Source: Leptolyngbya boryana PCC 6306 (GTDB taxonomy: Bacteria > Cyanobacteriota > Cyanobacteriia > Leptolyngbyales > Leptolyngbyaceae). Taken from it: a stretch of DNA of 64,000 bases. This document shows, piece by piece, positions 8,077-55,595 of this stretch. The stretch spans positions 2,126,577 through 2,190,576 of the forward strand of contig NZ_KB731324.1 of NCBI RefSeq assembly GCF_000353285.1, read 5' to 3'. Within the stretch, counting starts at the first letter, position 1. Each line of letters opens with the position of its first letter. The notes under the pieces were generated by a model, which had not been told where the DNA came from, searched no databases, and saw nothing but the letters and a program-made list of their open reading frames with translations. Made by a program: the position numbers and the translations under genes.

Positions 8077-8325
8077 CTTATTATGCTGAACGGCGTGCTC
8101 AATTTCGTCTCGACAAACCTTCGACTCGATCGAATCGCGGCTGATCACAAACACAAATGTATTTGCACTTTCGATGCCACGCTGAATTTCATGCCACCAT
8201 TCTGCACTGAGGGGAATATCTTCCCAATCGACCCACGCATCCCGATTCTGCGCTTCGAGTGCCTGATGTAACTGTTCTACAAATGACTTATCCTTCCGGG
8301 AGTAGGAGATGAAAACGTCACGCAT
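8077..8325 (-). pseudogene. TIR domain, 5' part of the interrupted TIR-WD40 gene
   Basis: From the ATG at 8325 the frame reads MRDVFISYSRKDKSFVEQL, the first strand and BB-loop region of a TIR domain. WVDWEDIPLSAEWWHEIQ and the SKVCRDEIEHAVQHNK helix follow. Glu74 in CRDEI aligns with the position that is the catalytic glutamate in NAD+-cleaving TIR enzymes such as SARM1. The insertion follows Lys83, just before the last TIR strand, so this 83-residue stub lacks part of the fold. Only one extra residue (Thr) is added before a stop formed by the IS end. It is divergent from the heptad-repeat ORF at 8388. Confidence 0.88.
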
Positions 8326-9730: not shown

Positions 9731-10837
9731 GTTCTTCGGCTCCACCAAATTCTCCAACCCATCAACCACTTTCATCGACTCAATCTTATCCCCCGCCCGC
9801 AGCTCTCTTAAAACATCTGCGCCTTCCGTCACAAATCCGAAAATCGAATAGCGACCATCCAGCAGATTCGCACCCGCAGGCGTTAGCTCCGGCTCAAACA
9901 AGAAAAAGAAAAACTGAGACGATCCCCCATTCGCATCAAAATCAGGACGCGCCAGAGCCATCGCCCCATAAGCAGAAAACGGCAGCACAGGCGGATCAAG
10001 ATAGCGTCCCGCATCCTCTAACGTGATGCCATACGTCGGAACCTTATCGCCTTTGACTAAAACTTCCAAAGGAATCGCCCGATACTTCTTCGTCTTCGGA
10101 TCGACAAAGCCAACCTCATCTCCAGGTGGATCACCGACTTGCAACACGTAAGACTCTTCTGCACGAGTAAACGGCAACCCGTTATAAAAACCACGCTGCA
10201 CCAAATCAACAAAATTCCCTGCCGTTACAGGCGCACTAAACCCATCTACCACGATCGTTAAATCCCCTTTCGAGGTCTTCGCTGCGATCGTTGCGCGTCC
10301 CTTTAACTGCGGCAAATTGCTATACTCTTGCGGCACTTCATACGGGAACTTAGAAACCATTGCTGCTTCCAAGTCGCCTATTTTATCTAATAGTTCTGCT
10401 CGCTTCTCTAGCGTTTTGGTTTTATCTTTTGCAGTAGCAATTTCGGTCATCTCCGCAATCCCAGCTTTCAGTTGCTCGATCAACTGCTCCGCTTCAGACT
10501 TGCGATCGTCCACCACGCTTGCCAATAATTTGTCACTTTTCTTCGTCAAAATGTTATTCGCACGACTCAAATCCGAATTCACCGCACCCCAGCGTCGATT
10601 TGCCCGCAACTGAGCCGCGACATCCTCCAAACTGTCCTGAAGTTGACGCACTTCAGGATTCTCGATCGGTAACGCATAGCGCAACAACGCTTTCGGATCT
10701 TTAATCGCATTCCCCTGCGGCAGTGCCAACACTGGTGGCTCAAATCCCACCAAAATCACCACCACGCAGAGCAAGGCAACTCCGCATTGGCTCAAGCGCA
10801 CGATCGCGCGTTTCCATGAATCATTACAAAAAGACAT
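9725..10837 (-). CDS. Cyclophilin-type peptidyl-prolyl isomerase, thylakoid-lumen TLP40/CYP38-like
   Basis: A 370-residue exported protein. The N-terminus has a basic stretch and a hydrophobic signal segment (about residues 18-40). A helical domain of about 130 residues follows, with a leucine/lysine-rich region (QLIEQLKAGIAEMTE). The C-terminal cyclophilin domain (about 180-360) shows FVDLVQRGFYNGLPFTR and FDANGGSSQFFFFL. This order matches TLP40/CYP38 of plants and cyanobacteria, which helps assemble photosystem II in the lumen; the cyclophilin active site in that family is often degenerate. It is divergent from efp. Its last codons overlap a dispersed repeat. Confidence 0.9.
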   Translation of the reverse strand: MSFCNDSWKRAIVRLSQCGVALLCVVVILVGFEPPVLALPQGNAIKDPKALLRYALPIENPEVRQLQDSLEDVAAQLRANRRWGAVNSDLSRANNILTKKSDKLLASVVDDRKSEAEQLIEQLKAGIAEMTEIATAKDKTKTLEKRAELLDKIGDLEAAMVSKFPYEVPQEYSNLPQLKGRATIAAKTSKGDLTIVVDGFSAPVTAGNFVDLVQRGFYNGLPFTRAEESYVLQVGDPPGDEVGFVDPKTKKYRAIPLEVLVKGDKVPTYGITLEDAGRYLDPPVLPFSAYGAMALARPDFDANGGSSQFFFFLFEPELTPAGANLLDGRYSIFGFVTEGADVLRELRAGDKIESMKVVDGLENLVEPKNA

Positions 10838-43414: not shown

Positions 43415-44585
43415 AGCCAGAGAAGCAGTTTGACGTTTTCCAGCATAGATCATCCTTGCCGAAATCGGATCGATTGCGCGCTTACGCATTGCTTATGAAG
43501 TAAAAAATGATGCATTAAACTATTAGTTGAAATCGCCCCTCTAACCAAAGTGAGAGATTAGAATTTCCTCTAAAAATTAAGTCCAAAAAAAGTGATCTGC
43601 TCTACTTTCTATGAGGTTAGTTCTTTTGTAATTTCAGATGAGTCTGAAATCGTTCTATCTAATTGTTAGGGTTCTAATGGATTGGTATTTCTAATCCATC
43701 GTAGAAGTTGATTCGCTCGTTCTTATTCTTGCTGCACTCAATTTGGTGATTATAATAACGTGCATCCTTCACAATATGTTCCACGCTTGATATCTAGACG
43801 TGATGTAGCAATCTTTGGGTAATTTGTATAGCCCATATAGTTAATAAAAATAATTTTTGTAATTGACTTGACAGCAATCATTTCGTTTCTTAGGCTTTTT
43901 ACAGAACGCCTTCGCACTCAAATCCTAAATCTAAATATATCTAAATATTATTTGGTTTCGGTTTGGGCAAGTCTTTGCAAAAGCAAGTCTGTGTTCCGAG
44001 GTTATCAACGATTCACTTTACATTACTCGGAATTAGCTTCATACAGCCTGAGCGAACTGATCGTATTTCGCTTGGTGCGAGTTTGAATTCGATCGAAACG
44101 TGTTGTTTTCTAATGTTAGGTAGGCTAAAGATGTCGAGATTCAAAATTATTTGTAGACGCGGCTTACGATACCGACGATGGGATAGACAGCACCACTGAG
44201 TTTGTCGCTTCTAATAATGGAATCACTCAGAATAACAAGATTCATTGAATCTTGATCGTTGTTTTATGGCTTGGTAATCGAGATTTGTACGAGGTCATCC
44301 TAACGCCCCAAGGATGTCAATTCATTATGAGGAAATTTGTCATGCACACTCGCATCAGTGCAGGGATATTCCATTCTATTGCAACGATTTCGAGAGTTCT
44401 AGGGAATACCAGTTCATTAATTTATTCAAACTGACGCTCAAACTTGAGTCCATCGCTCAAAAAATCTGCCAAATTGGCGACAAATTTGCGGAGAGATTGT
44501 CACCATTGAGAGCAAGCATTTTAACGCTCGCTGGAGAGATAGTCAGCTTTTAAGAAAAATACTCAAAATGCCAGGAAGTTAGGAT
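43415..44585. other. 1.17-kb AT-rich intergenic region upstream of the exporter locus
   Basis: No convincing gene. Several short open frames exist (for example 43868-44086 and 44252-44434), but they have no ribosome sites and no recognisable product. A short stretch from about 44130 to 44240 reads DAAYDTDDGIDSTTEFVA in one frame without a start and may be a peptide-gene remnant. The palindrome TGCCAAATTGGCG at 44467-44479 lies 106 bp upstream of the exporter ATG and probably belongs to its promoter. Base composition is lower in GC than the flanking genes. Confidence 0.5.
44467..44479. promoter_or_regulatory. TGCC-N5-GGCA palindrome, site 1
   Basis: TGCCAAATTGGCG, with one base off the full palindrome. 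It is 106 bp upstream of the exporter ATG. It matches the sites at 49712, 51287, 51355, 54510 and 54577, all in this locus. Confidence 0.5.
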
Positions 44586-47500
44586 ATGAATTCAGCCTCG
44601 AACCTTCAGGCACTGCTTCAGCCTCAACGCTTAGGAGGCGCGATCGACATCCAAATTGCCCTCCGAAAACTGCTCGCTGCTGCCCAGATGGATGAAACGA
44701 TCGCGCAAGCTTTGAGCCAGGACTTTCAGCTGTGCGAATTTCAGCTTGGGAATGAATTGAACGATAACGCAGAAGACAAATCCCCTGCTGCTTCTGACGA
44801 ACAAAATGCACACTTTTATGTCATTTGTCAGGGGAAAGTTAGATTGATCTGCCCTGATCTGCGGCAGCAGCGAGATCTATCAGTCATGCTTTTAGAGACC
44901 GGGCAATGCTTTGGGGCAGAGTCGATATTTTGCCAGAATTCACTCCCTTATACTGCGATCGCGGCGAGTCCTGTGACGCTTGCGCGTATCTCTGTGACCA
45001 AACTTGAAAGTTGGTTAAAAAAGCTTCCCCAACTGCGGAATTTTTTAGTCCAGCAAGCGACTCGCTTCGCCCGTTTAATCTTTCTCAGAACTGCTATCGC
45101 TTGGGATATAGAGGGTGCTAGCTCGAAGAAAACGCTGACGAGTCATCAGGCGCAGCAGTTGTTATTTTTCTTAGAGACGATTGAAGTGCCGGCAGGGGCA
45201 AAACTGGTGGAAGCAGGCATTGATTCGGGTTACTTCTGGCTATACCAAGGTGAGATTGACGCTCAAAATTCTGAGGTGACACCCGCGATCGTCGGGGAAA
45301 GTTGGGGAGAGATTCAGAAAACTCCCCCAGATTGGATCGCGAAGACAAAATTGCTGATTTACAAAGTCTCGATCGAGCAATGGAAAGCAATTTCCTCGCC
45401 AGTCACGGCTTCTGGAACATTGGGGCGCTACCAGCAAGAAACGATCGCCTTGGGGCGCGGCTCACCGCAACTTTTACTCTCAACTTCGACTCAGGGAGAT
45501 GCGACTCAAAAAGCCCTGAGTCAGGATGTGACTCATTCAACGCCAGCGAATCAGGTTGCAGTCAACTTTCCTAAACCCGCTCGGCATGTTCCTTGGCAAC
45601 CCAAACTGCTGAAGCGGTATCCATTGATTCAGCAGCAGAGCGCAGCAGATTGTGGGGTTGCCTGTATTGCAATGATTGGTCAGTACTGGGGAAATCGGCT
45701 GAGCCTGAACACACTGCGGGAACTAGCAAAGGTGGGACGTTCTGGGGCTTCACTCAAGAACTTAGCACTCGCAGCAGAGAATGTTGGGTTTCAGGCACGA
45801 CCGGTTCGGGCAAGTTTAGGGCGGATGGCGGAGCAGAGAAATCCCTGGATTGCTCACTGGGAAGGGGATCACTATGTGGTCGTTTATCGGGTCAAAGGGG
45901 GACGGGTACTGGTCGCCGATCCTGCCCGTGGTAAACGCAATCTCACTCATCAAGACTTTCTCAAGCATTGGTCGGGCTATGCCTTGATGCTTGATCCGAC
46001 CCCGCAACTCAAAACGGTTCAAACCACAGAGCGTAACTTAAAACGGTTTTGGGAAGTCTTGTGGTCATATCGGTCTGTGCTGTGGCAAATCATTCTACTT
46101 TCTTTGCTACTGCAACTGTTTGGGCTAGTTACACCGCTCTTTACTCAAATTATTCTTGATCAGGTCGTCACGCAGAAAAGCTTGCCCATGCTGCATCTTT
46201 TCAGCCTTGGGTTGCTGTTGTTTAGCGTTTGGCGGATTGGACTGGTTGGGGTACGGCAGTATCTATTAGATTATTTTTCTAATCGATTTGATTTGACGTT
46301 GATCAGTGGGTTTGTTGGTCATGCTTTAGTGTTGCCTCTGAAATTCTTTGAATCTCGCCAGGTTGGAGACATTCTGACGCGGGTGCAAGAAAATAGCAAA
46401 ATTCAAGCTTTTCTAACGCGGCAGGCGGTTGCGACTTGGCTAGATACGACGATGGCGATCGTTTATCTCGGGTTGATGTTCTACTACAACTGGCATCTGA
46501 CTCTCTTCGTCATCGCATTGATTCCACCGATCGTAATTTTGACCCTGGTTGCGACTCCATTTCTGCGGCAAATTTCGCGGGAAGCCTTTAGCGCAACGGC
46601 TGAGCAAAACTCGCTGCTGGTGGAAATGATGACAGGTGTCGCAACCGTAAAATCGGTGGCAGCAGAGCGAGAAGTCCGCTGGCGTTGGGAAGACCGCCTA
46701 ATTGGAATGCTCAACATCCACTTTAAGGCGCAAAAACTGACCAATGGGCTGCAAGTGACAGGCGGATTGGTCAATTCGATCGGAAGTACTTCGCTACTTT
46801 GGTACGGTGCAAGTTTGGTGATTCAAGATCAGTTAACGATCGGGCAATTCGTTGCTTTTAATATGTTAATTGGTAATGTGATTGGACCTGTACTAGCACT
46901 CGTTGGACTGTGGGATGAGTTCCAGGAAGTTTTGATTTCAGTCGAACGATTGAATGATGTATTTTCCGTTAAACCGGAAGAGACACCTGGACAATCGATG
47001 TTAGTGCTCCCTCCGATACGAGGGGAAGTACAGTTCGAGAAAGTTACGTTTCGCTATGAGCAAGCCGAAGAACGCAACACGCTGGAAAACATTTCAGCAA
47101 AAGTTGAAGCAGGTCAAACGATCGCGATCGTGGGGCGGAGCGGGTCTGGAAAAAGTACATTGATCAAGCTCCTGCAAGGGTTATATCATCCCACCACTGG
47201 TCGAATTTGGATCGATGGTCATGACATTAAGCATGTCTCACCCCAGTCTTTACGCAGCCAATTAGGAGTTGTGCCGCAAGAGTGCTTTTTGTTTTCAGGC
47301 ACGATTCTAGACAATATTCAGCTTTATCGTCCTGAATACACGCTAGAGCAAGTGGTAGAGGTTGCGAAGCTAGCAGAAGCTCATGCTTTTATCCAGGATT
47401 TACCCTTGGGATATAACACCAAAGTTGGTGAGCGCGGTGCAAATCTATCGGGTGGACAGCGGCAGCGAATTGCGATCGCTCGTGCGCTTTTAGGGCAACC

Positions 47501-47753
47501 CGCAATTTTGATTTTAGACGAAGCCACGAGTTCTCTCGATACAGAATCAGAGCGCCGCTTTCAGCAGAATTTAGCCAGAATTAGTCGAGGACGCACCACA
47601 TTTGTGATTGCTCATCGTCTATCTACGGTGCGAAATGCCGATCGCATTTGGGTCCTCGATCGTGGAGTTTTAGCAGAGCAAGGAACTCCTGAAGAATTAA
47701 TTGAACTCAAAGGCATTTATGCACATCTAGCTCAGCAACAACTCGATCTCTAA
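44586..47753 (+). CDS. HetC-like peptidase-containing ABC exporter (C39 peptidase, cNMP-like N-terminus)
   Basis: A 1055-residue peptide exporter. Residues 60-300 resemble two cyclic-nucleotide-binding-like domains (FYVICQGKVRLICPDLRQQR; LETIEVPAGAKLVEAGIDSG). The C39 peptidase follows, with catalytic Cys356 (SAADCGVACIAMIGQYWG), His429 (GDHYVVVYRV) and Asp445 (VADPARG): a full triad able to cut after double-glycine leaders. Next come the six-helix membrane domain (about 485-770) and the ATPase with Walker A GRSGSGKSTL (near 849), signature [12 protein letters not shown] and ILDEATSSLD. The order cNMP-C39-TM-NBD is that of Anabaena HetC. An HlyD gene and a HetP-like gene follow. A TTAGGA site precedes the ATG, and the palindrome at 44467 lies upstream. 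It should export the leader peptides of this locus (inference). Confidence 0.93.
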   Translation: MNSASNLQALLQPQRLGGAIDIQIALRKLLAAAQMDETIAQALSQDFQLCEFQLGNELNDNAEDKSPAASDEQNAHFYVICQGKVRLICPDLRQQRDLSVMLLETGQCFGAESIFCQNSLPYTAIAASPVTLARISVTKLESWLKKLPQLRNFLVQQATRFARLIFLRTAIAWDIEGASSKKTLTSHQAQQLLFFLETIEVPAGAKLVEAGIDSGYFWLYQGEIDAQNSEVTPAIVGESWGEIQKTPPDWIAKTKLLIYKVSIEQWKAISSPVTASGTLGRYQQETIALGRGSPQLLLSTSTQGDATQKALSQDVTHSTPANQVAVNFPKPARHVPWQPKLLKRYPLIQQQSAADCGVACIAMIGQYWGNRLSLNTLRELAKVGRSGASLKNLALAAENVGFQARPVRASLGRMAEQRNPWIAHWEGDHYVVVYRVKGGRVLVADPARGKRNLTHQDFLKHWSGYALMLDPTPQLKTVQTTERNLKRFWEVLWSYRSVLWQIILLSLLLQLFGLVTPLFTQIILDQVVTQKSLPMLHLFSLGLLLFSVWRIGLVGVRQYLLDYFSNRFDLTLISGFVGHALVLPLKFFESRQVGDILTRVQENSKIQAFLTRQAVATWLDTTMAIVYLGLMFYYNWHLTLFVIALIPPIVILTLVATPFLRQISREAFSATAEQNSLLVEMMTGVATVKSVAAEREVRWRWEDRLIGMLNIHFKAQKLTNGLQVTGGLVNSIGSTSLLWYGASLVIQDQLTIGQFVAFNMLIGNVIGPVLALVGLWDEFQEVLISVERLNDVFSVKPEETPGQSMLVLPPIRGEVQFEKVTFRYEQAEERNTLENISAKVEAGQTIAIVGRSGSGKSTLIKLLQGLYHPTTGRIWIDGHDIKHVSPQSLRSQLGVVPQECFLFSGTILDNIQLYRPEYTLEQVVEVAKLAEAHAFIQDLPLGYNTKVGERGANLSGGQRQRIAIARALLGQPAILILDEATSSLDTESERRFQQNLARISRGRTTFVIAHRLSTVRNADRIWVLDRGVLAEQGTPEELIELKGIYAHLAQQQLDL

Positions 47754-47926
47754 ACTGAGGCTCGATCGATAGTTCCAATGCTGAAGAAGGTCTGAAAAGT
47801 TTCCGCAAGGTGTGTTTACTAACACTTGAAAAGCAGCACCCTAATGACTAAGATGATCGACGTTTTAGGGTTAGTTCTCACAAGATTTGTCCTATCTGAA
47901 TACTATGACTCTACGAGGCATACTCT

Positions 47927-49300
47927 ATGGTTCAGCTTGCCCCTCACAACCAAGGTTCTCCAGTCAATGATCAACAGCATGATCAACAGACGGAGAATTC
48001 CTTTCCCAAACCCTCAGGTTCCGCCCATTCTCACTGGTCTGCCCCTTTAGAAGCGGTGCTCGATCAACCTCCTTCTACATTGCCCCTGCGTCTGATGGTA
48101 GGAGGTGCGGTATTTTCGATTTGTTTTGCATCTTGGGCTTGGTTTGGTCAGATCAATGAAGTCGCTCGCGCTCAGGGCAGGCTGATTCCCAGAGGTAGCG
48201 TGTATAAAGTCAATCCGACTGAGACAGGCAAGGTTTCTCGCATCTTAGTTGAGGAAGGGAAGCCTGTGAAAGCTGGACAAGTCATGATGGAACTGGATAA
48301 TGAACAAGCCAATCATGAAGTAGAACGGTTAGAGAAAGAAAGAACCGCAGCCCAGATCGAGTGGAGTCAGACTCAATCTTTACTGGCTCAAGTTCAGCTT
48401 CAGGCAGAGAGCCGTTTAGATGCGATGCACGCTGAAATGAGAGCGCAGCAGGTCGAAATTTCCCAAGGTAAAACCAATATTGCGACTACTCAACAATTAC
48501 TGGATCAACTGAATGAAGATGCGATCGCTCAGGAAACTCGGCTGAAGCGATTCCAACCTTTAGTAGAAGCAGGCGCGATCGCGCAAGAACAAGTTTTTCA
48601 AGTTCAACAAGGGTTACGCGATCGCCAACGAACGATCACAGAGCAGCAAGGAACCTTGCAACGATCGGTAGAAGATATCGAACGCCTCAATGCAGGAATC
48701 GCCCAAAAGCAAGCAGAACAAGCAGAACTGCAACAACAGTCGAACCAGCAAGTGCGCCAACTCGAAATCAAACTCTCTCAGATTCAAGCAAGAATTAGTG
48801 AACTACAAACCTTGATTGCAGCAGCAAATTCTAAACTTCGGGAACGTTACTTATACGCACCGACGAGTGGTATCGTTTCTGCACTGAGTCTGCGGCATCC
48901 TGGAGAAGTCGTTCAACTGGGACAAGCGATCGCAGAGATTTCTCCAGCCCAAAAGCCACTGATCTTATCCGCAGTCCTTCCAAACCAAGAAGCAGGGTTT
49001 GTCAAAGTAGGGATGCCTGTACAGGTAAAGCTTGATGCTTATCCGTATCAGGACTATGGCATTGTTACTGGACATGTTGCGAAGATTTCTCCCGATGCTC
49101 AACCCGACGAACGCTTGGGACGCGTGTACCACATCGAAGTGGAATTAGAACGCTCCTATATTACGAAAGATCAACAGAAAGTTTTGTTTAAGGCAGGGCA
49201 AACTGCGACGGCTGAGATTGTGACTCGGCAGCGGCGCATTGTCGATTTATTGTTTGATCCTCTGAAAAAGCTTCAGGCAAGCAACAACGTGATCCAGTGA
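47927..49300 (+). CDS. HlyD-family membrane fusion protein
   Basis: A 457-residue periplasmic adaptor that links an ABC exporter to the outer membrane. The ATG at 47927 follows GAGG. A cytoplasmic N-terminus is followed by one transmembrane helix (LMVGGAVFSICFASWAWFG). A lipoyl-like segment follows (VNPTETGKVSRILVEEGKPV), then a long coiled-coil hairpin (about 130-310; KERTAAQIEWSQTQSLLAQV). The C-terminal barrel includes LSLRHPGEVVQLGQAIAEI and VQVKLDAYPYQDYGIV. It lies 173 bp downstream of the C39 exporter and 38 bp upstream of the HetP-like gene, so it should be the partner of that exporter. Confidence 0.94.
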   Translation: MVQLAPHNQGSPVNDQQHDQQTENSFPKPSGSAHSHWSAPLEAVLDQPPSTLPLRLMVGGAVFSICFASWAWFGQINEVARAQGRLIPRGSVYKVNPTETGKVSRILVEEGKPVKAGQVMMELDNEQANHEVERLEKERTAAQIEWSQTQSLLAQVQLQAESRLDAMHAEMRAQQVEISQGKTNIATTQQLLDQLNEDAIAQETRLKRFQPLVEAGAIAQEQVFQVQQGLRDRQRTITEQQGTLQRSVEDIERLNAGIAQKQAEQAELQQQSNQQVRQLEIKLSQIQARISELQTLIAAANSKLRERYLYAPTSGIVSALSLRHPGEVVQLGQAIAEISPAQKPLILSAVLPNQEAGFVKVGMPVQVKLDAYPYQDYGIVTGHVAKISPDAQPDERLGRVYHIEVELERSYITKDQQKVLFKAGQTATAEIVTRQRRIVDLLFDPLKKLQASNNVIQ

Positions 49301-49338
49301 TTTTAAGATCTGACTAGGATATAAAAAAGGTGAAAAGC

Positions 49339-49749
49339 ATGACTCAACAAGGCTTTAGAAATTCGAGCGCATCGCTCGATCGCGTCATGGAAACTGAGCA
49401 ATTTAACCAAGTGATTGAAGCGATCTTAGCAGGAAAATATTCGTGGGCTTGTGTTTTAATTTTGCAGTTTGGTGGCTATAATCCGCTCCACTACATTCCC
49501 TACAGAACCTATAACCGGATTATGAAGGATCACTATCAAGCAGGGCAAAAGCAAGCTCAAACTCCTGATTCAAATCCGCAGCAACCGAATCCGATCAAGG
49601 ATTTGAATTACTTGGAAGTCGTGAGTGAGCCTCGAACTCGAATTAAAGGCGGAACATTTGCAACCTTAGAACAATGGTTGGGTCAATGCAACGACTTGCC
49701 CGTGAATAAGGTGCCAAAATGGCAGGCTTCTCTGTTGACAACTGACTAG
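49339..49749 (+). CDS. HetP-like protein carrying a C-terminal double-glycine leader-like segment
   Basis: A 136-residue protein. Residues 19-63 match the HetP family core: TEQFNQVIEAILAGKYSWAC, VLILQFGGYNPLHYIPYRTY, NRIMKD. HetP is a commitment regulator of heterocyst development in Anabaena, where hetC and hetP are adjacent. A Gln/Pro linker (67-85) is followed by PIKDLNYLEVVSEPRTRIKG and a second G (residues 85-105). This segment copies the leaders of the small peptides in this locus, including the GG; 31 residues follow. The ATG at 49339 is preferred (AAGG 8 bases before); a GTG at 49330 overlaps that site. A 27-bp gap separates it from the first peptide gene. The palindrome at 49712 overlaps its last codons. 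Confidence 0.9.
   Translation: MTQQGFRNSSASLDRVMETEQFNQVIEAILAGKYSWACVLILQFGGYNPLHYIPYRTYNRIMKDHYQAGQKQAQTPDSNPQQPNPIKDLNYLEVVSEPRTRIKGGTFATLEQWLGQCNDLPVNKVPKWQASLLTTD
49712..49724. promoter_or_regulatory. TGCC-N5-GGCA palindrome, site 2
   Basis: TGCCAAAATGGCA lies inside the last codons of the HetP-like gene and 52 bp upstream of the peptide gene at 49776, so it may drive that gene separately. Confidence 0.5.
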
Positions 49750-49775
49750 AATACTGGCAAATAAGGAGTATTTAT

Positions 49776-50114
49776 ATGCTGATTCGCGACTTGTCTCATC
49801 TTGAAATTCTGGATCACTCATCAGATATTTTTGGTGCTCTACAAGCGAATGACGGTATCCTGACCCTTTCACTGAGTGAGGACAACACGCTTTCTCTGAA
49901 ACAGGGTAGTACAGAGCTGTGGAGCACAAAGCTAGCAAATTCACCTCAAGGTATCAGCCTCTCTCTCCCTGGTAATCCAAATCTTGCAGTCTCTAGCACA
50001 ACAATGGCGACAGCAGATGGCAAGTCTAGAACAATCTTGGCTCTAAACTTCGGCACATCTCCGGTTGTCTCTTTCGCCTCTGCTCGGAGCTTGACAGCCA
50101 GTTTCCCATTCTAA
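49776..50114 (+). CDS. Leader peptide B (112 aa, GA cleavage site)
   Basis: Strong ribosome site AAGGAG eight bases before the ATG. The N-terminus MLIRDLSHLEILDHSSDIFG plus Ala21 is a double-glycine-type leader of 21 residues ending GA (C39 peptidases also accept GA). The mature part is Ser/Leu/Thr-rich with few charges and a beta-like pattern (STELWSTKLANSPQGISLSL). I do not recognise its family. It lies 27 bp after the HetP-like gene on the same strand and has a terminator after it. Likely a substrate of the C39 exporter (inference). Confidence 0.75.
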   Translation: MLIRDLSHLEILDHSSDIFGALQANDGILTLSLSEDNTLSLKQGSTELWSTKLANSPQGISLSLPGNPNLAVSSTTMATADGKSRTILALNFGTSPVVSFASARSLTASFPF

Positions 50115-50133
50115 ATCTAATTACGACCTAGTA

Positions 50134-50164
50134 AAAACACAACACGGAACTCGTGTTGTGTTTT
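50134..50164. terminator. Bidirectional rho-independent terminator
   Basis: AAAACACAACACG (50134-50146) and CGTGTTGTGTTTT (50152-50164) form a perfect 13-bp stem with a 5-base loop, T-rich on both strands. It separates peptide B (plus) from peptide C (minus). Confidence 0.88.
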
Positions 50165-50186
50165 CTGTATGATTAGATTGAATTTA

Positions 50187-50390
50187 CTAGCTCGATGCTG
50201 AAGAACTGTTGGAGCAACTTGTAGAGCGACTACTTGCGCTTTGGCTCGTTCCTGCCGAAGAGACGCTGATGCTGACAGATTGATGGGAAACCGTTGTGGG
50301 GTCTGAGAGAATCACCTCACTTCTAGCTTCGGCTCTCGATCGCCCATCAGTTGAAATAATTCGTCGAATCAAGATCTTGTGCTGGCTCAT
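50187..50390 (-). CDS. Small Ser-rich peptide C (67 aa)
   Basis: Starts at an ATG preceded by GAGGA at 10 bases. The product MSQHKILIRRIISTDGRSRA has a basic, hydrophobic N-terminus. The second half is almost only Ser with Val, Ala and Thr (SVSISVSSAGTSQSASSRST). It does not carry the DLNYLE leader or a clear GG. Ribosome site, position between two peptide genes and Ser-rich composition like peptide D support it as real. Whether the C39 exporter handles it is not clear. Confidence 0.5.
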   Translation of the reverse strand: MSQHKILIRRIISTDGRSRAEARSEVILSDPTTVSHQSVSISVSSAGTSQSASSRSTSCSNSSSASS

Positions 50391-50424
50391 CTTTCGGTAT
50401 CCTCAACTTTACTGCATTTGATTG

Positions 50425-50742
50425 CTATTTGTTCGACACACTGACATAGATCGAGGTGCTATTTGATCGCGCGATCGCGGTATTGTATTGCGCTGCGGCT
50501 AGCGCATAGGCATCTGCATTTGCATTGCTGGAATATAAATAGCCAACGTTATTAATCCGTGTGGATGTTTTTGTGGAAGTATAGGTCATTGAACCACTTG
50601 CACCTGCATTCGCATTCGCATAAGTAAAATTCTTCGTGCTGTAAGTTGTGGTACTGACGCTCACACTGACGCCGCCATGAATGCTCTCTTTCACAGTCGA
50701 GTCTACGCGATAGTCTAGATCAGTGATCATCAAACAAGTCAT
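50425..50742 (-). CDS. Leader peptide D (105 aa, GG cleavage site)
   Basis: An ideal ribosome site (GGAGG) precedes the ATG at 50742. The N-terminus MTCLMITDLDYRVDSTVKES is followed by IHGG, giving a 24-residue leader (or 20 if translation starts at the second ATG, M5). The mature part is Ser/Thr/Asn/Ala/Tyr-rich with few charges (FTYANANAGASGSMTYTSTK), and looks like a surface or adhesive peptide. The gene lies downstream of peptide E on the same strand. The family is not recognised. Confidence 0.72.
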   Translation of the reverse strand: MTCLMITDLDYRVDSTVKESIHGGVSVSVSTTTYSTKNFTYANANAGASGSMTYTSTKTSTRINNVGYLYSSNANADAYALAAAQYNTAIARSNSTSIYVSVSNK

Positions 50743-50856
50743 TCTTTTTCCTCCAATACTATGCAATTTGCACAAGCAATTTTGGTACGACAATATCGCC
50801 CTTAAATTTTTCAATTTAATCATTCGTGCAAAAAGCTTAAGGCAGAACAAAACAAA

Positions 50857-50903
50857 TTAAGGTAGGGCAACAACGGAGAGATTCCATGGTTGCCCTACCT
50901 TAA
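50857..50903 (-). terminator. Hairpin between peptides E and D
   Basis: TTAAGGTAGGGCAAC (50857-50871) and GTTGCCCTACCTTAA (50889-50903) are perfect 15-bp complements. The hairpin lies 28 bp after the stop of peptide E on the minus strand and is long enough to terminate. It is followed by T-poor sequence. Confidence 0.7.
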
Positions 50904-50930
50904 ACTAGTCACTCAATAATTAATTGAGTT

Positions 50931-51194
50931 CTAGTTGGAAGCAGAGATAGAAGTACCGCTCGAATAAGACGAGTAAGGCGTAGTTTTCGTGTAGGTGAAA
51001 ATCTGAGCCAAACTGTCTTTTCCATAAGCTTCTGCATCAGATTCAGCAGTAGCGACGTTACCTTTCAGATTGACTTTCGAGTTGATGTATTTGTTGATTT
51101 TTACGGTTTCTTTGAAGGAGACAGAGGGATAAGTAAAGCCACCGAAAACTTCTGTTTGAGCGGTTTCTAAGTAGTTGAGATCAGAAATAATCAT
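50931..51194 (-). CDS. Leader peptide E (87 aa, GG cleavage site)
   Basis: The ATG at 51194 is preceded by AGGAG. The N-terminus MIISDLNYLETAQTEVFGG is a 19-residue leader ending in GG. The mature part is Ser/Thr/Lys-rich (FTYPSVSFKETVKINKYINS and TPYSSYSSGTSISASN). Its DLNYLE is identical to the segment in the HetP-like protein and in peptide F. The palindrome at 51287 lies 93 bp upstream. A perfect hairpin follows the stop. Likely a substrate of the C39 exporter (inference). Confidence 0.8.
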   Translation of the reverse strand: MIISDLNYLETAQTEVFGGFTYPSVSFKETVKINKYINSKVNLKGNVATAESDAEAYGKDSLAQIFTYTKTTPYSSYSSGTSISASN

Positions 51195-51286
51195 TGGATT
51201 TCTCCTTGGAATTTTTGTTTCTTAGTTGTTTCAACTCTGTTGTTTGAGTTGATATTTATAAGATAAAGGATGCGTTTTTTAGAGGT

Positions 51287-51367
51287 TGCCATTTTGGCAG
51301 TTTTGTTTGTGTTTTAGTAATTTTTTTCGACATTACATTTATGAGATTGAATTCTGCCAGAATGGCA
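51287..51367. promoter_or_regulatory. Two TGCC-N5-GGCA palindromes, sites 3 and 4, in a divergent promoter
   Basis: TGCCATTTTGGCA (51287-51299) lies 93 bp upstream of peptide E (minus), and TGCCAGAATGGCA (51355-51367) lies 85 bp upstream of the GNAT-TPR gene (plus). Centre-to-centre distance is 68 bp. Each side of the divergent pair has its own site. Confidence 0.55.
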
Positions 51368-51451
51368 CATCGATACATTTTTTGATTGCTAAAATCCTTG
51401 GCGGCGGCAGAAATATTGATTGTTGATAAACAATTTCAGGAGAAACCAGAT

Positions 51452-53791
51452 ATGGAAGACATAGAAATTGACATTATTGATGATTTTGAAATGTTTCAGA
51501 CGATTAGAAATACCTGGGAATCCATATACAATGCTGATCATCAGGCTCGATTCTTCTCATCTTGGATCTGGCTATCTGGAGTACTGAAACGGTATGATCA
51601 GTTTCATGAATCGTGGTTTATATTAGCAGCCAAATCAAGGAGCCGCGGTTCAGAGTATGTCGCATTTTTTCCGCTATACCTTACAGCACTTGAGAATCCA
51701 GATGGATCATTTCATAGTGAACTTGTGATGGCAGGAGTAGCTGATGCAGACCATGTTGGATTTATCTGTTTGCCTGAATATGAAATAGCTGTAAGCTCTG
51801 CGTTTGCTGCATTTCTTCAACAAGAAGAATGGTGGACTTTTGAGCTAGATAATATTGCGACGATCGAGGGAAGAATTAGCCTAATTTTGAAGGAGTTTCT
51901 GACAGAAGGATTTGAATTGAAGGAACGATGCTACGTTAGTGACTTAGATCATATCGACAATAACATTGTTCCATATATTGATTTGCCAGGCACCTGGGAA
52001 CAGTATCTTCAGACCGTTGTTAGCTCAAATACTCGGCACAAAATCAGACGCTTTTTCAGAAAAATTGAGGATTCTTCTGAATTCCATTTGACCTATGCCA
52101 ACGCAGATAATTTTGAGGATCATCTTGAGGTACTTTTGGAACTCTGGAGATCAAACTGGGAAAGCAGAAAAGGGGCGGATCAATGCCAGAAGATTTTGGA
52201 TAAGATTGGGCATACATTGCGGCATTGCTTTGAACATCAAGCCTTGTCTTTGTCTGCGCTATGGCAGGGAGAAAAGCCACTCGGCGCGATCGCGAATCTC
52301 TTAGATTGGAGCCATAAAACGGTTTTGTTTTTGATCGGAGGACGCGACGATACTGTGAAAGATCTGGCTCCAGGAATCATTCTCCATGCGGACGCGATTC
52401 GGGATGCGATTCAGAAGGGGTTTCAAGTTTATGACTTTCTACTGGGCAATGAGGCGTATAAGTTTTCTTTTGGCGCAAAAGAGCGGCGAATTAAGATTGT
52501 TGCGATCGAGCGTAAGCACTTGCTCAATCCAATTCAGCCGCTAAATATTCGGCTGATTCCTAAAGCACTTCAAATTGCAGCAAGTTACCAACAGACGAAT
52601 CAACTGAGTCAGGCTGAGCAAGCATACCGCCAGATTCTAAGGGTGCAACCTCAATATCCAGAAGCTCTGTATAACTTAGGAGTGGTGATGCATCACCAGG
52701 GAGATTATCCAACTGCCGAGGAGTGTTTTAGAAGTTTGCTACAGCTACAGCCGAACGATGTCAGAGCTTGGTTTAGTTTAGGAAACTTGTACCAAATTCA
52801 AGAGCAGTTACTAGAAGCAGAAAAGGTGTATCGGCAAGCTTTAATGCTTCAGCCTCAATCCTCTAATGTTGCATTTGCTCTCTATCACAATCTGGGCTAT
52901 GCCTTACAGCAGCAGAACAAATGGGACGATGCGATCGCTTGTTATCAAACGGCTCGTGAACTGAAACCGGATTCGATTGAAGCAGAAGTGATTTGGGCGA
53001 ATGCACTTTACGCTCAGGGCACATTACCCCCGGAACAACAGGAGCACTATGCTGTCATCAATGCTACTTTGGGCAACAAACGCCAACAAGCAGGCGACTT
53101 AAAGGTTGCGATCGCATATTACCAGCAGGCGATCACCATGAACCCAGAGTTAGCTGAAGCTTACTATACTCTGGGGCGTGCTCTACAAAAACAAGAGCGC
53201 TGGGAAGACGCGATCTCAGCTTATCAAAGAGCGCAGGAGCTTCAGCCGGAGGTGCGTGAAATCGCCGTTTGTCTAGCAAATGCTTTTTATGCTCAGGGGA
53301 CGCTCCCATTAGACCAGCAGGTGCATTATGCAACAGTCAATTCTGAGCTAGGCGACGAGTGCCAACAGATGGGTGATGATAACGGCGCTATTGAGTGCTA
53401 TCAGCAAGCGATCGCGATGAATCCAGCACTAGTAGAAGCTTACCTTGCTCTGGGGCTTGTCTTGCAAAAACAGAAAAGATGGGAAGCCGCGATCGCGGCT
53501 TATCAAAAAGTACAGACACTTCAACCTGATAATCTTCAAGCCGAGTTGGGTATCGCTGCTGTGCTTCATGCCCAGAACAAATTATCGATTGAAGATCAAG
53601 CTCGTTATGCTGCACTCAGCTACGAATTAGGGAATGCTCAGCGGCAAGCGGGTGATTTAAAGAGCGCGATCGAATCTTATCGGCAGGCAATTACTTTACG
53701 ACCCGATTTAGTTGAGGTTCGCAATCATCTACGACTTGCATTGCAAGATCAGGGCAACGTCAAAATTAAGGTCAGTTGTGCAAAACAGTAG
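51452..53791 (+). CDS. GNAT-type (FemAB/BioF2-like) acyltransferase fused to TPR repeats
   Basis: A 779-residue protein. The start ATG at 51452 follows AGGAGA. The first about 350 residues resemble the GNAT-like domain of the CelD/BioF2 family: FEMFQTIRNTWESIYNADHQ, TWEQYLQTVVSSNTRHKIRR, LWQGEKPLGAIANLLDWSHK, APGIILHADAIRDAIQKGF. A C-terminal array of about ten TPR motifs begins near residue 380 (AEQAYRQILRVQPQYPEALY and DDAIACYQTARELKPDSIEA). GNAT domains of this kind transfer acyl or aminoacyl groups, so peptide tailoring is possible; TPR would hold the substrate. The gene lies beside peptide E and has its own palindrome. I know of no assigned function for this fusion. Confidence 0.8.
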   Translation: MEDIEIDIIDDFEMFQTIRNTWESIYNADHQARFFSSWIWLSGVLKRYDQFHESWFILAAKSRSRGSEYVAFFPLYLTALENPDGSFHSELVMAGVADADHVGFICLPEYEIAVSSAFAAFLQQEEWWTFELDNIATIEGRISLILKEFLTEGFELKERCYVSDLDHIDNNIVPYIDLPGTWEQYLQTVVSSNTRHKIRRFFRKIEDSSEFHLTYANADNFEDHLEVLLELWRSNWESRKGADQCQKILDKIGHTLRHCFEHQALSLSALWQGEKPLGAIANLLDWSHKTVLFLIGGRDDTVKDLAPGIILHADAIRDAIQKGFQVYDFLLGNEAYKFSFGAKERRIKIVAIERKHLLNPIQPLNIRLIPKALQIAASYQQTNQLSQAEQAYRQILRVQPQYPEALYNLGVVMHHQGDYPTAEECFRSLLQLQPNDVRAWFSLGNLYQIQEQLLEAEKVYRQALMLQPQSSNVAFALYHNLGYALQQQNKWDDAIACYQTARELKPDSIEAEVIWANALYAQGTLPPEQQEHYAVINATLGNKRQQAGDLKVAIAYYQQAITMNPELAEAYYTLGRALQKQERWEDAISAYQRAQELQPEVREIAVCLANAFYAQGTLPLDQQVHYATVNSELGDECQQMGDDNGAIECYQQAIAMNPALVEAYLALGLVLQKQKRWEAAIAAYQKVQTLQPDNLQAELGIAAVLHAQNKLSIEDQARYAALSYELGNAQRQAGDLKSAIESYRQAITLRPDLVEVRNHLRLALQDQGNVKIKVSCAKQ

Positions 53792-53799
53792 CAAAAAAG

Positions 53800-53831
53800 T
53801 AGGGGTGAGATACTCTCTACTCTCGCCCCTA
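53800..53831 (+). terminator. Hairpin terminator of the GNAT-TPR gene
   Basis: TAGGGGTGAGA (53800-53810) pairs with TCTCGCCCCTA (53821-53831), one G-T pair, with a 10-base loop. It lies 9 bp after the stop. Confidence 0.75.
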
Positions 53832-53916
53832 TCAAAATTAAAGAAAATCAAAAAGCTTGAGAGCTTGAACTGGGTAACTGACAAAACGTTGAACATCATC
53901 TTGGCTGCGTTTCTGT

Positions 53917-54051
53917 CCCGCACCAGATTCAAAACCCGGTGCTAACCATGCGAACTCCCTAAAGGGACTCCTGAACCCAGCTAATGGCTTAGGAATACAG
54001 TCTCTTCAGAGACTTCGTTCGATGAGCACGGGGTTTCAACCTCGTGCGGAG
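53917..54051. repeat. Long imperfect palindrome, dispersed repeat copy 4
   Basis: Outer arms run from CCGCACCAG to AACCCGGTGCT and pair with AGCACGGGGTTTCAACC and CTCGTGCGG. The inner pair ACTCCCTAAAGGGACT / AGTCTCTTCAGAGACT mirrors the inner arms of the copies at 1911 and 9551. It sits between the GNAT-TPR gene and peptide F, so the peptide locus is interrupted by a repeat. Base identity with the other copies is low outside the cores. Confidence 0.6.
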
Positions 54052-54115
54052 CAATGCGATCGCGTGCAAGCCATGCGAGATGAGAAAGATTTGTCAGTCA
54101 ATCAGGAGCTTGAGA

Positions 54116-54448
54116 CTAAGGTTTATCGATGACCAGGATTTTACCCTTAACAATCATCGTGTCTTTGTTTGAAAAGTATTTTACTTTTGTCTTCTCGATC
54201 ACCTTGTCTCCCGAGCCAAAGAGATCAACTCCAGCCAGCGAATCGGTTCCGGTCGCAACTGCTATCCCACTGCCTTTTCCGATAGATCCTCCATTTCCCA
54301 ATTCTTTCACTTTAGTTCTGGTATCAGTTAGGGTGAAGCTTGAATCTCCGGTAGCGGATGCGTCAGCCGTTACACCGACAATAACTCCTCCTGAAATTGT
54401 CTTGATGTCTAGAACATGTTCTAAATAGTTCAAATCGTTGATCTGCAT
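54116..54448 (-). CDS. Leader peptide F (110 aa, GG cleavage site)
   Basis: The ATG at 54448 gives MQINDLNYLEHVLDIKTISG plus a second G, a 21-residue double-glycine leader. DLNYLE matches peptide E and the HetP-like protein exactly. The mature part is Gly/Ala/Thr-rich (VIVGVTADASATGDSSFTLT; GNGGSIGKGSGIAVATG). The longer frame up to 54523 would precede the leader and overlap the palindrome at 54510-54522. The ribosome site is weak. Likely exported by the C39 transporter (inference). Confidence 0.78.
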   Translation of the reverse strand: MQINDLNYLEHVLDIKTISGGVIVGVTADASATGDSSFTLTDTRTKVKELGNGGSIGKGSGIAVATGTDSLAGVDLFGSGDKVIEKTKVKYFSNKDTMIVKGKILVIDKP

Positions 54449-54509
54449 AGGATGTATCTCACAGATAAAGCTATTTTTACAATCTAAGCAGGTGTTCGTT
54501 GAAACAAAT

Positions 54510-54589
54510 TGCCAATTTGGCACATTCTACTCAATAGTCCACATCGAGAGAATGGCAAAGCTTTGTTAGCAGAATTAGCCAAAATGGCA
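54510..54589. promoter_or_regulatory. Two TGCC-N5-GGCA palindromes, sites 5 and 6
   Basis: TGCCAATTTGGCA (54510-54522) lies 62 bp upstream of peptide F (minus). AGCCAAAATGGCA (54577-54589), one base off, lies between it and the isomerase gene starting at 54840. Spacing between sites (about 67 bp centre to centre) is almost the same as between sites 3 and 4. Confidence 0.5.
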
Positions 54590-54839
54590 ACATCTAATTT
54601 TTTTCAATCCCTACACTAGCTAAAAAGCCTTATTTGATCGTTTAGCTTTATACATCTTCAGGGCTGCTTGAGTCTCAATCATCTCATTTCATCTCTTGTA
54701 TAAACGATCATGAAAGCGATCGCGAATAATTCCGTCTCAATACACAATCGCCCTGCCTCCATCAGTCGGTAAAATTAATTCCTACTGTAGAAGGCTGGAT
54801 AGATCCTTCAATTATTCTTTCAACTCTACAGGTTCAGTG

Positions 54840-55595
54840 ATGTTTATTCAGATTGAAAACGGCATGGTTTCCTCGTCATACTCTTCGATTCAACCTGATG
54901 AGATTGTTGGTTACTTGAAGAAGAACCTGCAATTCAAAGAAGTGTGTCAGGCGATTTTCACTCAAAAAATTATTGATCAAACGGCTCGTGAGCGTGAGAT
55001 TTTTGTCTCGCCTGAGGAAATCCAAGCAGAGGCCGATCTCATCCGACGTGACCTACGGCTAGAGCGTGCCACTGATACATTAGCTTGGCTGGCAGAGCAG
55101 CAAATTACAGTTGAAGATTGGGAAGCGGGCATCCGCGATCGACTACTCACCCAAAAATTAAAAGAGACGCTATTTGGGCAGCAAGTTGAAGGTTTTTTCG
55201 CCCAGAATCGCCTGAATTTTGAGCGGGTGATTCTGTATCAAGTTCTTGTTCCTTACGAGCATGTGGCTCGAGAAGTTTTTTATCAAACCGAGGAACGAGA
55301 AATTAGTTTTTATGAGGCGGCTCATCTTTACGATATGGATAGTAAACGGCGATATCAGTGTGGATATGAAGGAGCCGTATATCGTTGGAATTTGAAACCA
55401 GAAATTGCAGCGGCAGCATTTGGTGCGACCCCAGGAGAAGTGGTGCGCCCCATTCAGACTGACCAAGGGTTTCACCTTTTATTAGTCGAAGAGTTTATTC
55501 CCGCTCAACTGACTCCTGAAATTCGCGAAGAGATTCTCTCGACTTTGTTTAGTGAGTGGCTGAGTGGAGAATTAAATCATTGGCTGAATCAATAG
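54840..55595 (+). CDS. PpiC/SurA-type peptidyl-prolyl isomerase (rotamase)
   Basis: A 251-residue protein without a signal peptide. The N-terminal helical part (IVGYLKKNLQFKEVCQAIFT) is followed by a SurA_N-like segment (EEIQAEADLIRRDLRLERAT). A parvulin domain with VPYEHVAREVFYQTEEREIS, GYEGAVYRWNLKPEIAAAAF and FHLLLVEEFIPAQLTPE completes it. The active-site residues are not clear by eye. Such isomerases are frequent beside HlyD/C39 export genes in cyanobacteria and may assist folding of exported peptides (inference from context). It overlaps the 3' end of the lipase gene by 7 bp, convergent. Confidence 0.85.
   Translation: MFIQIENGMVSSSYSSIQPDEIVGYLKKNLQFKEVCQAIFTQKIIDQTAREREIFVSPEEIQAEADLIRRDLRLERATDTLAWLAEQQITVEDWEAGIRDRLLTQKLKETLFGQQVEGFFAQNRLNFERVILYQVLVPYEHVAREVFYQTEEREISFYEAAHLYDMDSKRRYQCGYEGAVYRWNLKPEIAAAAFGATPGEVVRPIQTDQGFHLLLVEEFIPAQLTPEIREEILSTLFSEWLSGELNHWLNQ

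Follow-up and report, generated by a model that had tools for sequence, protein, structure and literature searches.

A palindromic promoter element that accompanies HetP in a peptide-export locus of Leptolyngbya boryana

The locus described here lies in a stretch of 64,000 nucleotides of the Leptolyngbya boryana PCC 6306 genome (contig NZ_KB731324.1, positions 2,126,577 to 2,190,576 of the forward strand; this whole stretch is called the window below). An exporter of 1055 residues is followed by a HlyD protein, a HetP-family protein, small leader peptides with a GNAT-TPR gene among them, and a PpiC protein. A palindromic DNA box stands in front of several of these genes, and it is the relation between this box and HetP that we deal with here. 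The main genes of the locus are the following.

44586–47753, plus strand: HetC-like exporter (Pfam cNMP_binding, Peptidase_C39, ABC_membrane and ABC_tran)
47927–49300, plus strand: HlyD-family periplasmic adaptor (TIGR01843, above cut-off)
49330–49749, plus strand: HetP-family protein, a putative DNA-binding activator (NF037966, E 6e-34; covariation with the palindrome)
49776–50114, plus strand: precursor peptide with leader MLIRDLSHLEILDHSSDIFGA
50425–50742, minus strand: precursor peptide with leader (MTCL)MITDLDYRVDSTVKESIHGG
50931–51194, minus strand: precursor peptide with leader MIISDLNYLETAQTEVFGG, core modelled as beta strands
54116–54448, minus strand: precursor peptide with leader MQINDLNYLEHVLDIKTISGG
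54837–55595, plus strand: PpiC-type peptidyl-prolyl isomerase, the SurA of Wang et al. (Pfam Rotamase; TIGR04500-like, under the model cut-off)

The export machinery and its leader peptides

A sequence-only reading had named these genes and joined them into one C39/HlyD peptide-export locus, and all of them were found where it had placed them, their domains being recognised by Pfam, TIGR01843 and NF037966 (for HetP 115.4 bits against a curated cut-off of 45). The exporter is a C39 protein of the long-exporter type with an extra N-terminal CAP_ED/cNMP domain (Pfam), and its proposed catalytic triad is intact: residues C356, H429 and D445 are indeed the Cys, His and Asp of a peptidase-containing ABC transporter (PCAT). 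Together with the HlyD adaptor and the rotamase (SurA) gene, this is what is found in the group I/II clusters of Wang, Fewer and Sivonen (2011), who described clusters with this machinery and with HetP genes nearby (PMC3140520; this and the other papers are cited from their accessible parts). No M16 peptidase, which is typical of group II, was present among the 20 proteins scanned from 36.8–63.9 kb, and strict membership of group II is therefore not claimed. A peptide-export locus with C39 and HlyD is well supported by the domains, the leaders and the same gene set recurring in other cyanobacteria; the locus is real and of a known kind, and its export reading is largely known.

The common DLxYLE...GG/GA leader that had been noticed on the four small peptides, ending with GG or GA 19–24 residues in, withstood counting against chance. 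Across the window the leader pattern was matched five times, always inside the locus, against a mean of 0.05 and a maximum of 1 in 60 order-3 Markov sequences; four of the matches are the N-terminal leaders and the fifth is internal to HetP. A degenerate 18-base search gave 19 sites in the 7.26-Mb genome, 4 of them at the locus, and in the stretches of about 3 kb around these 19 sites only those of the locus fitted the full leader pattern. Conservation of the leader in relatives, on which the sequence-only reading depended, was also observed, with 75 distinct leader open reading frames (ORFs) across 38 loci when all the loci gathered are considered. Among curated precursor families, including CTB bacteriocins, no relevant NCBIfam match was obtained for the four peptides at E<=1, the best being at chance level. 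By analogy with known families, the C39 domain would cut after the GG or GA during export. DLxYLE-type leader peptides also adjoin HetP-less exporters in loci L224 and L232, without the palindrome described below, so the leader is not restricted to HetP clusters.

A palindromic box that follows HetP

The palindrome TGCCA-N3-TGGCA precedes three of the four peptide genes (of these four, three lie on the minus strand) and the GNAT gene, with four copies within 5 kb. All four are followed by a TAnnnT element and are oriented with their respective genes; two weaker near-copies are listed after them.

49712–49724, plus strand: palindrome TGCCAAAATGGCA for peptide 49776, with TAGAAT at 49747–49752 (22-nt spacing)
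51287–51299, minus strand: palindrome for peptide 51194, with TATCTT at 51260–51265 (21-nt spacing)
51355–51367, plus strand: palindrome for the GNAT-TPR gene, with TAAAAT at 51390–51395 (22-nt spacing)
54510–54522, minus strand: palindrome for peptide 54448, with TAGATT at 54481–54486 (23-nt spacing)
54577–54589, plus strand: weak near-copy AGCCAAAATGGCA pointing towards PpiC, with TACACT at 54612–54617 (22-nt spacing)
44467–44479, plus strand: weak near-copy TGCCAAATTGGCG, 107 bp before the exporter ATG, with no TAnnnT at 21–23 nt

The exact box occurs at 15 sites in the genome, 4 of them at the locus, and a reversed control pattern at 10. Two sets of loci were assembled: 40 regions around HetP matches, one of which is this genome's own second cluster, and the best 80 of 438 relatives' loci, one of which is also in the first set. 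When 13,312 inverted-repeat patterns were scanned in the 300 bp upstream of 47 leader ORFs (some of them possibly spurious) in 18 loci, the window included, the box was the top pattern, being present before 22 of the 47; its own shifted form reached 7 and every other pattern at most 3. It again ranked first in the second set (10 of 21 leader ORFs, against 2 for the next pattern). Altogether 35 of the 75 distinct leader ORFs have the box within 300 bp, at a median of 100 bp before the ATG, and the ORFs that have none include later members of tandem arrays. All 35 boxes are followed by TAnnnT at 21–23 nt, and 34 of them at 21–22 nt, where control positions gave it in 116 of 2625 cases. At class II activator promoters (those of NtcA, for example, whose site is GTA-N8-TAC) a palindrome comes first and TAnnnT about 22 nt after it, and the box with its TAnnnT has the layout of such an activator site.

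The distribution of the box follows HetP. The extended box TGCCAWNWTGGCAACA, searched in 386 genomes, gave 55 matches in 32 of them (the reversed control gave 14), and HetP is encoded in 20 of these 32 genomes as compared with 64 of the 386 overall (Fisher p 8e-10). At the level of loci, the box with TAnnnT was found in 78 of 98 that have both HetP and an exporter, in 37 of 47 that have HetP but lack an exporter in the stretch covered, and in none of 15 where an exporter stands without HetP; these counts are not all independent, as some loci occur in both sets, and the 15 HetP-less loci were drawn from 20 selected exporter regions. L224 and L232 have no box, and L229, one of the other five exporter regions, carries HetP without a box. 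In the 30 loci that came from the pattern search, the TAnnnT spacing was seen in 10 of the 20 whose genomes have HetP and in 1 of the 10 (L114) whose genomes have none. In one further locus (L118), a box near 1501 has TACAAT 22 nt downstream on the minus strand and faces a Ser-rich frame of 225 residues without the leader motif.

The box is also found where HetP serves cell differentiation. Of the 80 loci of the second set, 63 were classed by the titles of their records as those of heterocyst formers, and in 58 of these 63 a box lies at most 1.3 kb downstream of the hetP stop; three of the five others end less than 300 bp past that stop. In many of them an isomerase gene also follows hetP. A conserved, putative structured RNA lies after this box:

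L148:10650–11060, and equivalents downstream of hetP: structured RNA after a palindrome promoter (consensus fold)

In 12 chosen Nostoc-type loci the consensus fold after the box has 92 pairs, 24 of them with changes on both sides, as compared with 8.8 (sd 2.0) in shuffles and 3–6 in slid versions, the fold having been derived from the same alignment that was used to score the changes. The region contains no ORF that appears conserved by eye, and in L148 and in three further loci with this RNA, which were searched in full, no Rfam family covered the region at its gathering score.

Box letters and HetP residues 58–59

Two segments of HetP are of particular interest, the first as a possible reader of the box and the second as a possible substrate of the exporter.

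49501–49551, plus strand: predicted helix YRTYNRIMKDHYQAGQK, HetP residues 58–74, starting at Tyr58-Arg59, a putative recognition helix (AlphaFold2 model, covariation)
49594–49653, plus strand: leader-like segment IKDLNYLEVVSEPRTRIKGG inside HetP (leader pattern), the 31 residues after its GG being the would-be released tail

We compared 136 distinct HetPs and sought the canonical box within 6 kb of each. Tyr-Arg stands at residues 58–59 in 126 of them, of which 113 lie near a canonical box. The only R59T HetP (L068) has no canonical box, and TACCA-N3-TGGTA is present twice at its locus: one copy, at 8200, lies upstream of hlyD, and the other, at 10781, precedes a leader ATG by about 97 bp. 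TACCAWNWTGGTAACA occurs three times in 42 genomes of the order, twice at this locus. Neither of the two Y58R HetPs (L067 and L249) has the canonical box, and at both loci AGCCA-N3-TGACC lies some 100 bp ahead of leader ATGs; AGCCAAAATGACCCC occurs three times, always at these two loci. Of these variant boxes, the two of L068, that of L067 and one of the three of L249 still have TAnnnT at a distance of 22 nt. None of the four Y58H HetPs, among them the second HetP of this genome, has the canonical box. In a tree of 84 HetPs, built on few columns and with many open forks, the Y58R, R59T and Y58H proteins fall in separate places among Tyr-Arg rows, and the Y58R pair is probably a single event. 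As an arginine is lost in R59T together with the G-C pair at position 2 of the half site, these changes suggest that HetP reads the DNA directly, and we thus infer that it binds the TGCCA-N3-TGGCA box.

The second HetP of this genome belongs to another exporter-HlyD-HetP cluster (C1:5275100–5295000); it reads IPHRT and has a leader-like tail of its own, and neither a leader peptide nor a box was found in that cluster.

The leader-like segment is not peculiar to the window, since 118 of the 136 HetPs carry DLxYL...G[GSA] past the conserved domain, and the pattern overlooks a few visible ones. A KIXDLXYLEX10GG motif in HetP has been published (PMC3140520) and repeated (PMC4558948), so that the HetP gene beside the exporter and the motif within it, which belong to what the sequence-only reading treated as standing out or had missed, are not new. 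HetC is an active C39-type protease whose substrate is not known, and in its authors' model a cut substrate keeps a regulatory N-terminal part inside while the remainder is exported (PMC10986499). HetP fits this model, as judged from its sequence, and is a candidate substrate of C39 exporters, among them HetC. Several HetP tails of heterocyst formers (e.g. that of L101) read EIRGSG or EVRGG, resembling the RGSGR pentapeptide of PatS/HetN.

Interpretation and comparison with known systems

The reading that we favour, by a modest measure, is that of a long-exporter peptide-secretion cluster carrying its own regulator, HetP, which would activate from the palindrome. Covariation across genomes points to HetP as a DNA-binding activator that occupies TGCCA-N3-TGGCA immediately before the -10 box; its Tyr58 and Arg59 might read the two outermost base pairs in both half sites. 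HetP would then switch on the genes of the peptides and of GNAT-TPR, and possibly that of PpiC. The C39 domain, judging from known families, would cut the peptides after GG or GA as they leave by way of HlyD and an outer-membrane channel whose gene lies elsewhere. A weaker suggestion starts from the leader that HetP itself carries close to its C-terminus: the exporter might also bind or cut HetP and so couple expression to export. A bolder version, which we find less likely than not and put below the main reading, takes HetP for a transcription factor with an export leader: its N-terminal domain would bind the box and activate the peptide genes, and the C39 exporter would hold and cut the DLxYLE...GG tail, so that the secretion machine controls its own regulator and exports a HetP-derived peptide. 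In heterocyst formers the pair would then have become HetC-HetP, with HetP as the HetC substrate, its tail as a possible cell-to-cell signal, and the box driving the structured RNA downstream of hetP.

Several observations weigh against these proposals. Within the window, no palindrome was found within 300 bp before peptide 50742 on the minus strand, and the exporter has no good box, only the near-copy without TAnnnT. Elsewhere, L114 has a box with TAGATT at 22 nt, no HetP match in its genome (G354) and no leader peptide; this box is possibly a relic, or a HetP was missed. Thirteen of the 126 Tyr-Arg HetPs have no box within 6 kb, several of them, though not all, at contig ends. A replacement box was sought for the Y58H HetPs and none was found, two of the three L249 boxes are without TAnnnT, and the altered operator was seen in two lineages only. 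One of the two S58 HetPs and the only Q58 HetP are near a canonical box; their genomes also encode a Tyr-Arg HetP, which makes these cases ambiguous. As to the protein itself, HetP has no Pfam match to a helix-turn-helix (HTH) family, its fold-search matches are weak, and its AlphaFold2 model (helices 22–33, 37–47, 52–55 and 58–74) is of modest confidence, good only over residues 21–50. Finally, the GG is degenerate in some Nostoc HetP tails, which weakens the claim of HetP as a substrate.

One alternative is that this is an ordinary bacteriocin cluster of the long-exporter type. HetP would then be one of the exported precursors, as in the proposal of Wang et al., and some unrelated transcription factor with its gene elsewhere would bind the palindrome. 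HetP does bear a leader-like motif, is listed as a precursor class (PMC3140520) and belongs to no recognised HTH family. However, the box follows HetP where there is no exporter and is absent where there is an exporter alone, its letters shift with residues 58–59, and the N-terminal domain of HetP is highly conserved whereas exported cores are variable; we thus find this explanation rather unlikely. Less probable still is an indirect regulation, with HetP as partner of the true DNA-binding protein and residues 58–59 contacting that partner. HetP homologues are thought to work with HetR via protein-protein contacts (PMC9045159), and no DNA-binding domain is proven in HetP, but a symmetric change in both half sites (TGCCA to TACCA) with the single R59T substitution is what direct reading predicts.

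A separate question is what the peptides are for. Their cores are variable and of low complexity; many have a high content of Ser, Thr, Ala, Asn and Gly, and some occur as tandem near-copies. One core family spans the 51194 peptide of the window, L184, L147, L200 and L208, and its model has strands at residues 38–44, 47–58, 61–72 and 75–86. By analogy, the cores are likely to work on the cell surface or beyond it, and with moderate confidence we favour a surface or matrix role for them. That they are secreted to build up a surface coat, a matrix or a fibre, helped by GNAT-TPR and PpiC, and do not serve as killing bacteriocins or signals, falls just short of being probable in our estimation. 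The strands of 11–12 residues, with a pLDDT of 71–79 over residues 51–87, and the low-complexity, often tandemly repeated cores agree with this idea; against it, the model had 5 sequences as input and a mean pLDDT of 55, the other four models are worse, no structural match at E<=0.001 was found by Foldseek, and GNAT-TPR was detected in four loci only.

Two further genes lie among those of the peptides.

51452–53791, plus strand: GNAT-TPR protein (Acetyltransf_6 and TPRs by Pfam), with homologues next to the cluster in L072, L075 and L085
50187–50390, minus strand: small conserved Ser-rich protein of 67 residues without GG leader, with 18 other homologous ORFs at E<=0.01

The GNAT-TPR protein, another feature singled out by the sequence-only reading, is present as claimed but patchy, being detected in the window and these three loci and undetected in the other locus sets. 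Its likely start is the ATG at 51452, because a -10-like box lies at 51390–51395. In the L085 genome a palindrome stands 77 bp before the GNAT ATG (L112), without TAnnnT at 21–23 nt. The Ser-rich protein has a RRIISTDGRSRAEARS-type start and a Ser-rich tail, and no Pfam or NCBIfam family matched it; of its homologues, 16 once two duplicate loci are removed, at least 9 directly adjoin PpiC by coordinates. This protein, the likely GNAT start, the leader inside HetP and the palindromic promoter elements had all been overlooked.

What is new here is the promoter box following HetP, the covariation which suggests that HetP reads this box, and the leader on HetP itself. HetP is a cell-differentiation protein of unknown mode of action, and both its function and the HetC substrate become testable, through a DNA site with predicted specificity switches and a predicted cleavage site in HetP. 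The locus also suggests that a switch for multicellular differentiation and a peptide-secretion system found in cyanobacteria without heterocysts have components in common.

Among known systems, NtcA-type class II promoters resemble the promoters described here in their palindrome followed by TAnnnT; however, the TGCCA half site with a 3-bp gap differs from the NtcA site, and the binder that we propose is HetP. The group I/II clusters (PMC3140520) share the long C39 exporter with CAP_ED, HlyD, the rotamase, small GG precursors and HetP with KIXDLXYLEX10GG. In our locus, in contrast, the motif is the N-terminal leader of four dedicated peptides, whose genes share a promoter palindrome that covaries with HetP, and neither feature was found in the accessible part of that paper. 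The small, secreted GG-motif proteins of Synechococcus elongatus biofilms (PMC4997328) have a role other than killing, which the peptides described here may share. HetC-HetP of Anabaena/Nostoc PCC 7120 likewise pairs a cNMP-C39-ABC exporter with HetP, but the accessible parts of PMC10986499 and PMC4133259 show no adaptor gene near hetC, whereas here HlyD adjoins the exporter and the precursors are recognisable; and while the box precedes peptide genes in Leptolyngbya, downstream of hetP in heterocyst formers it precedes the putative structured RNA.

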